Virus record (IMG/VR): IMGVR_UViG_3300025437_000076
Coordinates: 1-21,200 of that record
Origin: a virus
DNA: 21,200 nucleotides
Strand: one strand, 5' to 3'
Shown: positions 13,383 through 18,512 of the stretch, piece after piece
Layout: every line of letters begins with the position of its first letter
How positions within the stretch are numbered: position 1 is the stretch's first letter
The notes under the pieces: model-generated
Told to the model about the DNA's origin: nothing
The model's input: only the letters and a program-made list of their open reading frames with translations
Databases searched by the model: none
Position numbers and translations under genes: made by a program

Positions 13383-13844
13383 ATGACTTGGTTCTATCAG
13401 AATATGCCCGTTGATGCTTTGCCCGAAGATTGTGTTGGATTTGTCTATTGTATAGAAAATCTAACCAATGGGCGCAAGTACATCGGCAAAAAACTGGCTA
13501 AATTTGCAAAGACCACCTACCGGGTGGTTCAACAAAAGAACGGAGTTAAAAAGAAAAAGCGTATACGCAGCAAAATCGACAGTGACTGGCAACTGTATTT
13601 CGGCAGCAACGATGAGTTGAAACGAGATGTAGCTCTGCTGGGTGCAGAACAATTCCGCAGGGAAATACTGCACTACTGCTCTTCAAAAGCCCTTTGTTCC
13701 TACATCGAAGCACGTGAGCAATTCGATCGTAAAGTTTTAGAGTCAGCCGACTACTATAACGGACAGATTTCAGTAAGGGTGCATGGCTCACACATCATAG
13801 ACAAAATTAAAAAATCACTGACACCAAGTCAAACTCACACATAA
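13383..13844 (+). CDS. GIY-YIG nuclease-like protein
   Basis: A 153-residue protein with a GIY-YIG fold signature. The first motif is degenerate (GFVY, 19-22, in VGFVYCIENLTNGRKYIGKK) and the second is YIG at 33-35. A downstream SYIEAREQF offers E109 as the metal-binding glutamate of this family. Between them lies a Lys-rich segment (KKKKRIRSK, ~56-64) that could bind DNA. Such free-standing proteins are common in aquatic T4-like phages, and their substrate is not known to me. It follows gp46 by 44 nt. The ATG is preceded by TATATT ending 7 nt upstream and by no ribosome binding site, so a promoter at the start codon is possible. Whether it is a homing enzyme or a repair/degradation nuclease cannot be told. 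Confidence 0.7.
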   Translation: MTWFYQNMPVDALPEDCVGFVYCIENLTNGRKYIGKKLAKFAKTTYRVVQQKNGVKKKKRIRSKIDSDWQLYFGSNDELKRDVALLGAEQFRREILHYCSSKALCSYIEAREQFDRKVLESADYYNGQISVRVHGSHIIDKIKKSLTPSQTHT

Positions 13845-14195
13845 ATTTACATCATAGGCGCTGTGCATGGCTAGGTCATGCTCCATTGAAGAACGGTGAA
13901 ATACCCGGTCTGGATCTTGGATGCCAAAGACAATTACTAACTTAAGGTAATAAATGATTGAGGCGCTGTGAAAAAGATACAACCTCAGCTCATAGGATTT
14001 GGGTCTATTCCGGATCACTAGGGTTCCGTTGATTTGTGAAGCTTGAGTAGGGGGTACCGGTCAACCGCCTCCGCGCCGCAAGGCAATCTCATTAGAATAG
14101 ATGACTGTGCTACTCGGATGATGCCAGATCAATTCACCGTGCTTACGGTGAATTATGACCAATTAATCTGGATGATACTGAAGTCAATAGATATT
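13845..14195 (+). ncRNA. Hairpin-rich intergenic region, possible structured RNA
   Basis: This is the main part of the only long non-coding gap, between convergent genes. I see no convincing ORF and no tRNA or tmRNA ends. It holds several complementary pairs on the plus strand. GCATG/CATGC are at 13865-13869 and 13877-13881. CGGA/TCCG are at 14011-14014 and 14025-14028. GAGTAG (14045-14050) pairs with CTACTC (14110-14115) and encloses a GCC-GCAA-GGC tetraloop hairpin. CCAGAT (14124-14129) pairs with ATCTGG (14166-14171) and encloses a perfect 10-bp hairpin at 14131-14154. A 10-base direct repeat, AGGCGCTGTG, occurs at 13856 and 13961. Family and direction are unknown, and it could be only 3' untranslated sequence. 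Confidence 0.3.
14131..14154. repeat. Perfect 10-bp inverted repeat
   Basis: AATTCACCGT, loop GCTT, ACGGTGAATT. There is no T-run on either side, so it is not a typical intrinsic terminator. It sits inside a longer CCAGAT/ATCTGG pairing. Confidence 0.85.
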
Positions 14196-14227
14196 AAAAA
14201 AATGTTGTGAGCGCTAGCGAAACAACA
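14196..14227 (-). terminator. Intrinsic terminator for leftward gp26 transcript
   Basis: Read on the reverse strand, TGTTGT (14227-14222) pairs with ACAACA (14208-14203) around a GC-rich loop and is followed at once by seven T's (14202-14196). It lies about 50 nt past the stop of the small ORF that follows gp26. A second 7-bp hairpin (14227-14244, loop CTTG) lies just upstream and shares one base with it. Confidence 0.65.
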
Positions 14228-14244
14228 GACTTGCTTGCAAGTCT
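14227..14244. repeat. 7-bp inverted repeat next to the terminator
   Basis: AGACTTG, loop CTTG, CAAGTCT on the plus strand. It may strengthen termination of leftward transcripts. Confidence 0.6.
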
Positions 14245-14279
14245 TAATATGATGGTGAACTATAAAGGACAATAACGAC

Positions 14280-14498
14280 TTAGAAGAAAGGAACACCAGT
14301 TTTCTTGGTAACTTCGATGTTGTCTTTGATTATTTTGCCAATGATTTCACGTTCGCCATGACTCAACATCATGGCATCATCATAGGTGAGTCCACCCCGC
14401 ATGTACCAGCTGAGTCTTAGTGCTTCGTCTCGTAAGGCTTTTGACTCTTTGTCGTATCCCTCAATTAGCTTGACGATACCCTCATTATCAAGAGTCAA
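14280..14498 (-). CDS. Small tail-assembly ORF, likely translated by -1 frameshift from gp26
   Basis: A 72-codon ORF in the -1 frame relative to gp26. It is rich in charged residues, with ALRLSWYMRGGLTYDDAMM, LSHGEREIIGKII and a C-terminal KKTGVPFF. It resembles small proteins next to gp26 in other aquatic T4-like phages, but I do not recall a proven function. The only near-start codon is a TTG at 14498 with a UAAGG-type site 5 nt upstream. Both sit in the 5' arm of a 17-bp stem, so independent initiation looks hindered. The frame is open through the gp26 slippery site, so it may be made mainly as the C-terminal part of a ~354-residue gp26 fusion. By analogy with lambda G/GT this would be a tape-measure chaperone; that is inference. 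Confidence 0.65.
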   Translation of the reverse strand: MTLDNEGIVKLIEGYDKESKALRDEALRLSWYMRGGLTYDDAMMLSHGEREIIGKIIKDNIEVTKKTGVPFF

Positions 14499-14506
14499 AA
14501 GCCTTA
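14433..14506 (-). other. Large mRNA hairpin downstream of slippery site
   Basis: In the gp26 message, UAAGGCUUUUGACUCUU (14506-14490) pairs perfectly over 17 bp with AAGAGUCAAAAGCCUUA (14449-14433). The 40-nt loop can fold further: GUAUC (14479-14475) with GAUAC (14458-14454), and UCAA (14473-14470) with UUGA (14464-14461). The 5' arm contains the gp26 stop codon, a UAAGG ribosome-binding-like site and the TTG start candidate of the next ORF. No T-run follows, so it is not a terminator. Confidence 0.85.
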
Positions 14507-15343
14507 ACCGAAAAAAGCTGCGTAGTCAAACGTGATTTGGATATCAAACGGTTTGCTGCACTCGGCACAATTGACATGTACTGGTTTGACAGCACCCTCT
14601 GTGTTCAAATTAGCTAGCTTGGCTTGTACTGCTTTTGTGACAGTAGTACTTGAATTTGTATAGAATTCATTTATAAAAGTTTTATCTCGTACCTGTGTGC
14701 CATCATCGGTTTCGATGTATTCGGTGCTGTCTACCAGTGTTTGCAACCCAATGTTGACAATTTTGGCCATTTGATCATTGATCATTACGCTGCGTTCAGT
14801 CTCGTCCATGCTGGTGTTTTCAATGGCTTGTAATAGCTTTTGTTCTTCAAACTGAGCTTGATTGGTTTTGTTTAGACTAAAATACGGCTGTGGATACAGT
14901 TTGATCTTTAGGGAGTCAACTGCAACTGGATCATCGTAACTGGGCATTCTAATGTTGTCTAACACCATACGCAAATCGATAGCATAGTCATCAAAGTTGT
15001 CGCATGCTGGGCATCTAGCGTTGAACGGCATCTCATGCCCAAAGCTGGCAATTCTAATGGCAATTATGACAGCATCAACATCAATACTGGGCATGCGCCA
15101 AGCGTCTAAGATATCAGGGCAGCAGCTTTGAATCACACTGATTACACCAGCACCGTTCATGAGTGCGTCTGGCGTCTTTAGTGTGATTTCATCTTTGGTG
15201 GTCATTGGGTAGATGGCAACTTCGCCGTTCAAGGGCAACTTTATGGCATCGTCGGGCCAATAGGTGCCGCCGCTGGGCAGTTTAAGGTAAATTGCTGGCT
15301 GTCTGAAGTGTTTGGCCAAGGGATTGTTGGGGTTTGAAGCCAT
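14504..15343 (-). CDS. gp26: Baseplate hub / tail assembly protein gp26-like
   Basis: A 279-residue protein of the T4 gp26 baseplate family. The diagnostic part is VAIYPMTTKDEITLKTPDAL, then MNGAGVISVIQSCCPDILDA and IIAIRIASFGHEMPFNARC. Two CxxC pairs, C111/C114 and C259/C262, could form a zinc site. In T4, gp26 is needed for hub assembly. Its neighbours here (a small C-terminal-frame ORF and the tape measure gene) suggest it acts as a chaperone loading the tape measure. It ends FDYAAFFG, and the FF codons form a slippery site, so a fraction of ribosomes may make a longer fusion. The ATG at 15343 has GGAG about 8 nt upstream and a late box 31 nt upstream, symmetric with the tape measure promoter. 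Confidence 0.85.
   Translation of the reverse strand: MASNPNNPLAKHFRQPAIYLKLPSGGTYWPDDAIKLPLNGEVAIYPMTTKDEITLKTPDALMNGAGVISVIQSCCPDILDAWRMPSIDVDAVIIAIRIASFGHEMPFNARCPACDNFDDYAIDLRMVLDNIRMPSYDDPVAVDSLKIKLYPQPYFSLNKTNQAQFEEQKLLQAIENTSMDETERSVMINDQMAKIVNIGLQTLVDSTEYIETDDGTQVRDKTFINEFYTNSSTTVTKAVQAKLANLNTEGAVKPVHVNCAECSKPFDIQITFDYAAFFG
14510..14516 (-). other. -1 ribosomal frameshift slippery heptamer T TTT TTC
   Basis: The gp26 reading frame here is GCT TTT TTC GGT TAA, so the heptamer T TTT TTC is in the canonical X XXY YYZ phase. A one-base backward slip continues as CGG TTA AGG CTT TTG ACT, exactly the frame of the next ORF. The stem begins 3 nt after the heptamer; melting of its first A-U pairs would give the usual spacer of 5-8 nt. 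Confidence 0.75.
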
Positions 15344-15392: not shown

Positions 15393-18300
15393 ATGGCTGA
15401 AATGAATGACCAAGATCTCAATGCTGTGATTGAGCTGTTTGCTAAATTGAAACCTGAACTGGCTGAAATTTTAAAACAGTATAAAAAAGAAAATCAATCG
15501 GCTGCCGCACGACAAGCCCAGCAAAAGAAAGAAGATCTAGCCAAACGAGAACAATACCGATCCACGCTCGAATTAAACGCCAAAATCAAGCAGGCCGCTA
15601 GCGATGGTGTAATGGGCAAATTCATCAAGGGCTTTACTTCTATAGGTCGCGAGAATTTTGCCGACACCATGAAAGACTTTAATAAAAGTCTTAAAGATCT
15701 TGATGCTGCAATTAAAAACACAACCGACGACAGCCACAAGGAAGCATTACAAAAACAACGAGAAACCGTAGCATCAAATTTAAGATTGGTGCAAACTCAG
15801 CAAGCTACGTCTGAGTTTATTAAAACCTTTAGTAAAACTGCTGTTAGTCAGATTTCTGCCACTACCGGTAGTTTTGTAAAATCCCTACAATCGGGTGCCA
15901 GCTCCACTGATTTAAGTAGCACGCTAATGAATGGTGCAGTTGATCTTGCAGCCGGATCAGCTGGCATGCTTGGTGGAGCCATGCAAGGTGTTGGCAGTGC
16001 CATGTCGCACCTTAAAGGCAAAGCTGGCTACGCAGGTATTGCACTTGATCTATTTGGTGGCGCTCTACAATCGTTTGCTGGCGGGGCAAGCAAACTGGCC
16101 AAATTTGGCATCGAGGTTTTATCCAAGGAAGTAGAAAAAACAGTCAATGCTTTCAATAGCATGAGTTCGTCTGGAGCCTTGTTTGCCAATGGCATGACTG
16201 GTATGCGGCAAGCAGCAAACAGTGCCGGTTTAACTGTCGAACAATTCTCAAAAGTGGTGTCGGCTAACTCAAGTACTCTAGCAGAAAGCGGTTTGGGTGT
16301 TGGTGAGGCTTCACGCAAGATGGGTGCGGTCAGTGCTGAATCGTCAAAATTAATAGGATCCAGCGGCAAATCATTGCAGCGAGAAATGCTACAGCTGGGG
16401 TACAGTTTTGAAGATCAAGCAGCATTAACAGCTGAAGTCATGGCAGATTTGCGTAAAGGCAACCAGTTGAAAAACATGAGCGATAAACAAATTGCTCAAG
16501 AAACTGCATCATATGCCACTAATCTACGTACTATTGCAGCAATAACCGGCGAAGATGCAAAACGTAAAATGGAAGAAAACCGCAAGGCTGCAACACAGGT
16601 GGCGTTCCGAAACAAATTGCAGGAATTGGAAAAGAAACAGCCCGGTGTAATGAATAAAATAATACAGAGCATGAACACCATGGACGAAACTAGTAAAAAA
16701 GCGTTCATGGAAAAACTAACCATGGGTAATGTGGTTGATAAAAATGCCAATATTTTAATGCAACAATTGCCGGGTATGTCTGAACAAATCGACGGCATGG
16801 TGGATTTAGCAAAAAGCGGGCAATTCTCAGTTGACGAAGCACAACGTCTGCAGGGTAAAACCAATGACAAGATGCGTGCAAACTTTGGGAATCTCAATGA
16901 CATAGGTATTGCAGGCATGGCCGGTGCCGGTGGATTAGAAGATCTAAATCGAGGAATTAGCGGAGTAGTTGACAATACTGATAAAGTCACTGAAGAGTCA
17001 GTAAAGAGTGCACAGGAAGCTGCAAAAAAACAAAAAGAAACTAACGATAAATTAACCGATGGTGTACTATCAGCTGAGCAGGCAGCACAAGATTTAAAAC
17101 TGGCATTAGAAAAAGAATTAACGCCGGCTATTGCAAAATTTGCCGAAGTATCTAAAGAGATGCTGGGCGCAGTGCAGGACATGCTCAACGATATGGGGTT
17201 AGGTACCAAGAAAAAAGGTAAAGAAGAAGAATTTGGATCAACCGCTGGTGGTATCACTGGTGATATTGCTGGTAGTGCAGTGGGTTTAGGTTTTGGTGAA
17301 GTAATTGGTGGCGCAATTGGTACAGCTATTGCTCCCGGTGTTGGGACTGTAATTGGCACCGAACTTGGTGGTATAGCAGGTACAATACTCGGTGGATTAA
17401 CCGCTGGCGCAGTGGGTGACGCAATTGGCGGCGCCATTGGTAAAGGTGTTGACAAATTCAGTAACTGGACATCTGGGAAAAAAGAAGAAGGCTATGCCAT
17501 GGGCGGTGTCAGTACTGGTCCCACCTCGGGTTATCAGCAATTGTTGCACGGTACTGAAGCCATAGTGCCTTTACCTGACGGCAAGACTATTCCAGTTAAA
17601 TTGGACATGGGCGATTTTACTCGCAACAGCATGGGTCAATCCAACGACTCTAAATCAACCAATTGGGGCGGTGCTGCAATGGGCGCTGCAATTGGTACTG
17701 CGATACTTCCTGGCATTGGTACTGCGCTTGGCGGCTTGCTGGGCGGGTTAACACAGGATACTAAAGATAACGGCCCGGACATGGGCGTATGGGAAAGCTC
17801 CACTAGCGAACTCGTAAAATCCAATAACGATCTAGGGCGTGCTTTTAAAGATATGGGATTCGGCACCTCCAAATTGGATCTTGGCAAGATGCTGGGTACT
17901 AGTGGATTATTTGATCAAAATCAAAAAATAGTTGATCAAATGACAGCTAACCAAGCAGCCGACAAAAACAAAGAACGACCCAGCGTGCTTGATACAATGG
18001 GTAATGCAGCCATTGGCGCAGCACTTGGGTCAATGATATTGCCTGGAGTCGGTACCATAGTTGGCGGTGTGTTGGGCAGTGGCATGCTTGATAATTTTGT
18101 TGGAGCCAACGATAAAAAAGATGATACCAGTAAGAGTATTGGTGCCACTATAGAAGATAGTTTTAAAGATTTAATGCCATATGGTATTAACAATACCGGT
18201 CAACCAGGCCTTAACACACCCGACATCAACGGTCTTATTTCTTCAATACAGTCTGATAATAACTTTAAAATAAAAACTGGTGGATTATTTGGTGGTTCAA

Positions 18301-18512
18301 AAGACAACCGAGACACTGACTCAAATCAAAGCATAGTTGCACCTGGCAGCGATCGCAACGTAAAATCTGCTGCTGCCGGTGCAGAATTAAATGATTTAAT
18401 GAAGCAACAGCTGGATTTGCTAAGACAGCTGGTCAGCAAAGCTGGAGATCAAGTGGATATGCAATCTTCTACCCGCGATTTACAGCAAAGATTACTTGAT
18501 AACTCCTATTAA
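15393..18512 (+). CDS. Tail tape measure protein
   Basis: A 1039-residue protein. It begins with a charged helical region (~1-130), followed by long Ala/Ser/Gly-rich helices. The motif GYQQLLHGTEAIVPLPDGKT (within ~710-731) is the GxEAxxPL signature of phage tape measure proteins. Three glycine-zipper hydrophobic segments share one pattern, GAxxGxxxxPGxGTxxGxxxG, starting near residues 640, 764 and 875; they could insert into or cross the host inner membrane. The C-terminus is a short coiled coil (LMKQQLDLLRQLVSKAGDQV). The protein sets tail length and is ejected before the DNA; at ~0.15 nm per residue it would specify a tail of roughly 150 nm. T4 gp29 is much shorter (590). There is no good ribosome binding site. 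It is divergent from gp26, with which it shares a symmetric promoter region. Confidence 0.85.
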   Translation: MAEMNDQDLNAVIELFAKLKPELAEILKQYKKENQSAAARQAQQKKEDLAKREQYRSTLELNAKIKQAASDGVMGKFIKGFTSIGRENFADTMKDFNKSLKDLDAAIKNTTDDSHKEALQKQRETVASNLRLVQTQQATSEFIKTFSKTAVSQISATTGSFVKSLQSGASSTDLSSTLMNGAVDLAAGSAGMLGGAMQGVGSAMSHLKGKAGYAGIALDLFGGALQSFAGGASKLAKFGIEVLSKEVEKTVNAFNSMSSSGALFANGMTGMRQAANSAGLTVEQFSKVVSANSSTLAESGLGVGEASRKMGAVSAESSKLIGSSGKSLQREMLQLGYSFEDQAALTAEVMADLRKGNQLKNMSDKQIAQETASYATNLRTIAAITGEDAKRKMEENRKAATQVAFRNKLQELEKKQPGVMNKIIQSMNTMDETSKKAFMEKLTMGNVVDKNANILMQQLPGMSEQIDGMVDLAKSGQFSVDEAQRLQGKTNDKMRANFGNLNDIGIAGMAGAGGLEDLNRGISGVVDNTDKVTEESVKSAQEAAKKQKETNDKLTDGVLSAEQAAQDLKLALEKELTPAIAKFAEVSKEMLGAVQDMLNDMGLGTKKKGKEEEFGSTAGGITGDIAGSAVGLGFGEVIGGAIGTAIAPGVGTVIGTELGGIAGTILGGLTAGAVGDAIGGAIGKGVDKFSNWTSGKKEEGYAMGGVSTGPTSGYQQLLHGTEAIVPLPDGKTIPVKLDMGDFTRNSMGQSNDSKSTNWGGAAMGAAIGTAILPGIGTALGGLLGGLTQDTKDNGPDMGVWESSTSELVKSNNDLGRAFKDMGFGTSKLDLGKMLGTSGLFDQNQKIVDQMTANQAADKNKERPSVLDTMGNAAIGAALGSMILPGVGTIVGGVLGSGMLDNFVGANDKKDDTSKSIGATIEDSFKDLMPYGINNTGQPGLNTPDINGLISSIQSDNNFKIKTGGLFGGSKDNRDTDSNQSIVAPGSDRNVKSAAAGAELNDLMKQQLDLLRQLVSKAGDQVDMQSSTRDLQQRLLDNSY
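17310..17375 (+). repeat. Glycine-zipper segment 1 in tape measure
   Basis: Encodes GAIGTAIAPGVGTVIGTELG, first of three related segments with a central PGxGT. More Gly/Ala-rich zipper sequence lies on both sides. Confidence 0.7.
17682..17747 (+). repeat. Glycine-zipper segment 2 in tape measure
   Basis: Encodes GAAIGTAILPGIGTALGGLL and neighbouring glycines, starting at residue 764. Nearly the same pattern as segments 1 and 3. Confidence 0.75.
18015..18080 (+). repeat. Glycine-zipper segment 3 in tape measure
   Basis: Encodes GAALGSMILPGVGTIVGGVL and neighbours, starting at residue 875. Confidence 0.75.

Follow-up and report, generated by a model that had tools for sequence, protein, structure and literature searches.

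The gp26 homologue encoded in the window (the whole analysed stretch of 21,200 nucleotides, drawn from a 21.2-kb IMG/VR record) is most probably a tail assembly chaperone (TAC) of a T4-superfamily jumbo phage, made in a short and a long form through −1 frameshifting, a reading to which the sequence comparisons described here lead us to assign a probability of about 0.93. The slippery heptamer at the end of the gene and its codon phase are conserved, the −1 frame behind it is open and under selection, the downstream stem covaries, and the protein belongs to the Pfam family PF12322. We infer the occurrence of slippage, its rate and the role of each form as follows. Most ribosomes would halt at the TAA and release the short form of 279 aa, while in a minority two tRNA-Phe would re-pair one base back (TTT TTC to TTT TTT), aided by the stem 3 nt downstream of the heptamer, and −1 reading past the slip would yield a minor long form of 354 aa that ends in a helical extension. 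For lambda G/GT, tape measure binding by the short form and tail tube recruitment by the extension are described (PMC5009743); if the analogy is followed, the tape measure protein here would be coated by short-form molecules, while the extra module of the long form would recruit tail tube subunits.

The gp26 gene and its 3′ junction

The gp26 product matches PF12322 (T4_baseplate) at 7.4e-14 and 52.4 bits, above the curated cut-off of 24.5, and the baseplate hub family phrog_150 at 1.1e-16. Read on the minus strand, the gene ends GAC TAC GCA GCT TTT TTC GGT TAA, with an in-phase T TTT TTC exactly where a preliminary description of this DNA had placed it (Table 1), and from position 14510 the −1 frame continues CGG TTA AGG CTT TTG..., with its stop at 14282..14280. 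The fusion frame of 354 residues proposed in that description agrees with the count (278+76 = 354 aa), and its remark that the 72-codon ORF lacks a nearby ATG is borne out, the listed ORF starting at TTG. An identical gp26 protein and junction are found on a 210-kb contig (L002). The isolates nearest to the window are the jumbo phages Sinorhizobium phage Phosso, Agrobacterium phage Atu_ph07 and the RaK2/PBECO4/PA5oct group; a DNA-level search against phages gave no match.

Table 1. Positions in the window of the gp26 junction, its predicted products and the neighbouring tape measure gene.
Feature	Position	Strand	Evidence
gp26 homologue, 279 aa, predicted short form (TAC-N / lambda G equivalent)	14504..15343	-	PF12322, phrog_150
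Slippery heptamer T TTT TTC, X XXY YYZ zero-frame phase	14510..14516	-	sequence; kept in relatives
Zero-frame stop TAA, one codon past heptamer	14504..14506	-	sequence
−1 extension, 76 aa + stop (predicted TAC-NC part / lambda T equivalent)	14280..14510	-	open in all relatives; codon-position bias; Atu_ph07/Phosso relatives
17-bp stem, 5′ arm, 3 nt past heptamer, likely stimulatory structure	14490..14506	-	inverted repeat; covariation
17-bp stem, 3′ arm	14433..14449	-	inverted repeat; covariation
Probable tape measure protein, divergent neighbour	15393..18512	+	phrog_167 4.3e-8, phrog_794 2.7e-6 (tail length tape measure)

Conservation of the heptamer

Loci for comparison were gathered by similarity of gp26 and not by the heptamer. 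A scan with the window gp26 returned 60 loci, and the 56 whose 3′ end is complete all carry an in-phase T TTT TTC, a gp26 stop 1-4 codons past it, an open −1 frame and a related extension. Further scans with gp26 queries from cyanophages, KVP40, PBECO4 and phiM12 brought the total to 215 complete IMG/VR loci, every one of which has an in-phase heptamer (TTTTTTC in 201, TTTTTTT in 14). With sequences of at least 90% nucleotide identity removed, T TTT TTY is in phase in 109/109 representatives; other Phe-Phe pairs in the same loci take this form in 21/337 cases (6.2%). Judged by these counts, the conservation of the heptamer is not a product of chance.

The pattern extends to cultured phages. 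The T TTT TTC junction is present in eight of nine isolated jumbo phages (Phosso, Atu_ph07, RaK2, SNUABM_47, PA5oct, Vibrio 2.275, PBECO4 and SCTP-2), the ninth, XacN1, reading T TTT TTT A, and a −1 frame extension follows in all nine. A gp26 ending in T TTT TTC/T with a −1 extension is likewise found in P-SSM2, S-PM2, phiM12, the pelagiphage HTVC008M and KVP40. Salmonella phage Vi01 (L092, Ackermannviridae) has a related −1 extension behind gp26, with GAA ATT TTC ATT TAA replacing the canonical heptamer. Aligned across related phages, as the preliminary description had proposed, the junction keeps its heptamer and −1 frame, and in the window's own clade also its stem; the comparative predictions on which the frameshift reading could have failed all came out in its favour.

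A run of T also invites another explanation, in which RNA polymerase rather than the ribosome slips and produces mRNAs one base shorter or longer. The six T of the heptamer, and the longer run of the T TTT TTT variants, would suit such slippage, but six T are short for it, most genes retain the C and so hold the run to six, and the covarying stem 2-6 nt downstream together with the strict codon phase fits slippage by the ribosome; an origin in transcription is highly improbable.

The extension in the −1 frame

No Pfam family matches the −1 extension of the window, while Atu_ph07 and Phosso carry a related extension directly behind gp26. Across lineages the extension varies between 58 and 76 aa and is kept in all of them. 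Mismatches counted by codon position of the −1 frame fall mostly on the third position, both in the window clade (5441/2681/9727) and in the cyanophages (6569/3604/12676), and by this pattern the extension is conserved and under coding selection. The missing annotation of the frame might be taken to mean that it is a chance or decaying overlap without a product, and nothing else was found in favour of that idea; the retention of 58-76 aa extensions in all lineages and the third-position bias in the −1 frame speak against it. Comparison of relatives refutes it, and its remaining probability is negligible.

A more substantial alternative is that a small gene of its own encodes the extension and is translated from a start at the gp26 stop, through re-initiation or termination coupling, with the heptamer incidental. 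Annotators have treated it so, as gp51 in cyanophages and as hypothetical proteins in PBECO4, SNUABM_47 and Phosso, and an ATG lies within 8 codons of the junction in 17/37 cyanophage representatives. Separate initiation is possible in many cyanophages and in KVP40, PBECO4, Phosso and Atu_ph07, since these have an ATG near the gp26 stop, and re-initiation could contribute in such phages. In the window clade, by comparison, an ATG is this close in 1/35 representatives, and in 9/35 none of the first 20 extension codons is ATG, GTG or TTG. Re-initiation is a weak rival in the window because its clade is mostly devoid of start codons near the junction. The −1 frame stops directly before the heptamer in 12/105 representatives of the three main groups, and in these it can thus be entered from gp26 only. 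The invariance of the heptamer at the nucleotide level and the presence of the same kind of domain within the single polypeptide of T4 gp51 also count against a separate gene, which as a general account is very unlikely.

A stem downstream of the heptamer

Frameshifting by the ribosome would be further favoured by the RNA that follows. The perfect 17-bp stem starting 3 nt past the heptamer that had been described previously was recovered, its arms enclosing a 40-nt loop, and among seven pairs of inverted repeats within 120 nt in the window it is the sole perfect one. The RNA of this stretch folds at -34.8 kcal/mol (z = -3.9), with none of 200 shuffles as good. Covariation was counted on a named structure, the window's 17-bp helix, instead of on an RNAalifold prediction. 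Among 35 window-clade sequences, compensatory (double) changes occur in 13 of the 17 stem pairs, in 56 cells, a result reached by 0/500 shuffles and clearly exceeding slid controls; at two pairs the alternatives are near even (U-A 15 vs C-G 14; A-U 15 vs G-C 15). RNAalifold predicted no consensus structure from the same alignment, probably because divergent members of the clade break the consensus.

A helix of the GGCTYTT/AARAGCC type begins 2-6 nt past the heptamer in most window-clade representatives. It is weak or absent in the most divergent members (L045, L049, L052) and in PBECO4, and candidate stems of other kinds stand about as far from the heptamer in other lineages. Loci resembling phiM12 and the pelagiphages (L209, L219, L252 and similar ones) show long-range candidate stems, CCCTCTC.../...GAGAGGG, that begin about 6 nt past the heptamer and enclose loops of 84-94 nt, an architecture unlike that of the window. 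A separate observation concerns L089, L090 and other cyanophage loci, where a Shine-Dalgarno-like GAGGGA/GAGGGT often stands about 8-14 nt before the heptamer. This stretch could be a second stimulator, though it falls in the conserved LEGLxSFF codons and is inseparable from amino-acid constraint.

Relationship to T4 gp26 and gp51

Both T4 gp26 (8.8e-64) and T4 gp51 (3.9e-52) match PF12322, and their shared family makes them paralogues; gp51 consists of a gp26-like protein with an additional C-terminal part. The cyanophage extension is annotated as gp51, 'baseplate hub assembly catalyst', and matches phrog_634. Profile comparisons identify the C-terminal part of gp51 as homologous to the extensions of the cyanophage and phiM12 types (E 1e-8 and 4e-8), and the alignment of gp51 with the cyanophage-type frameshift fusion runs on through the junction (E 2e-20). 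The window-clade extension aligns with the jumbo-phage extensions at 4e-25, and its motif falls in register with that of the cyanophage extensions; its similarity to gp51 alone was not significant by profile comparison. Foldseek searches with AlphaFold models of gp26 (pLDDT 86.6) and gp51 (87.6) returned no PDB match at E <= 0.001, and a sequence search for a solved relative found none, its weak matches being designed helical proteins.

The two solutions differ in their distribution. The searched T4-type genomes have two full-length genes of the family (gp51 being split in G005) and all other genomes have one, and the heptamer is absent from all nine T4-type gp26 genes, one of which ends GAG TTC TTT GAG TTA CTA TAA. 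In the T4-like G005 (L080, 125062-125813), gp51 is divided into two reading frames around 125427, which may be a sequencing error or a real frameshift. As these alignments indicate, gp51 is the natural in-frame equivalent of the frameshift long form, and T4-type phages would reach both products through two genes, 26 and 51. It is fairly likely that a T-rich −1 frameshift in gp26 is ancestral to the whole T4 superfamily including the jumbo phages, that the stimulatory stems evolved independently, and that the T4-types replaced the frameshift once, by duplication and in-frame fusion into 26 and 51.

Genomic neighbourhood and a structured RNA

The preliminary description had set the fusion gene beside the tape measure gene. 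The adjacency holds for the probable tape measure gene, but a shared operon does not, gp26 being transcribed away from its neighbour. S-PM2 has its genes arranged as tail tube, gp26, extension and tape-measure-like protein, which is the classical position of a tail assembly chaperone.

On its other side, the extension of the window is adjoined by a conserved structured RNA of about 400 nt, contained in a 430-bp stretch (13846-14275, plus strand) without a plausible gene. At least 120 stretches of viral contigs in IMG/VR contain its near-invariant core of 19 nt, GGGGTACCGGTCAACCGCC, and 38 copies of the RNA align over about 400 nt. The consensus fold of 35 copies comprises 109 pairs, with 94% of cells paired and 46 pairs showing at least two double changes. 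The RNA matches no family in Rfam 15, which gave no match anywhere in the window. In three relatives (L003-L005) the RNA is again located behind the gp26 extension, and in a fourth (L050) it stands elsewhere. This RNA may be more novel than the gp26 frameshift. Adjoining it is a gene for a SegE-like GIY-YIG homing endonuclease (13383-13844, plus strand; PF19835, 7.7e-33), a family that carries the odd label 'NAD synthetase' in PHROG 447.

Comparison with known systems and biological meaning

The resemblance to lambda G/GT, already drawn in the earlier account, is supported by the S-PM2 gene order and by gp51 as a fusion of a gp26-family protein with the extension. It is one of architecture: a short protein and a predicted minor −1 extension stand next to the tape measure gene, as in lambda, but the slippery site is another one, GGGAAAG in lambda, and in the window the two genes are transcribed divergently. 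A TAC frameshift in Vandenendeviridae and Andersonviridae (PMC12846349) shares with the window a myovirus TAC, a T-rich −1 site and a conserved extension, though it belongs to other phage families and uses another motif, GTTTTT.

The earlier account had known of no described case in gp26 of T4-like phages, and in this it has to be amended. In a 2010 review, gp26 and gp51 of T4 appear as chaperones of hub assembly (PMC3004832), and according to a 2016 review long-tailed phages conserve the G-T frameshift, 'except T4' (PMC5009743). Vladimirov, Gautam and Davidson (Virology 2022, 566:9-15) then identified the genes that encode TACs in T4-like phages, a study seen here through the passages that cite it: the PRFect paper (PMC10885494) does so for T4-like phages in which a long fusion gene accompanies the short gene, and the paper on phage Adele (PMC12846349) for poly-T slippery sequences in the TAC-N genes of T4-like phages. 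From these citations, we read the TAC genes in question as 26 and 51. So described, they would share with the window gp26 the PF12322 family, the pair of short and long products and the poly-T slippery site in the TAC-N gene; the window differs in that its uncultured jumbo-phage clade has a single gene and the 17-bp stem, whereas T4 itself has two genes. Given what is cited on the two-gene solution and the poly-T sites, this kind of system is already known, and the present comparison adds a broad survey that takes in jumbo phages, a stem with covariation and, in the window, a new member. A literature search for a gp26 frameshift in RaK2-like jumbo phages found no description, an absence that is weak evidence.

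For annotation, the finding would mean that the long form of gp26 is split or missed in many genomes. Jumbo phages and clades from metagenomes would come under the rule of short and long tail chaperones in long-tailed phages, and gp26 and gp51, hub proteins of T4 that are essential yet little understood, would take a clear place alongside lambda G and GT.
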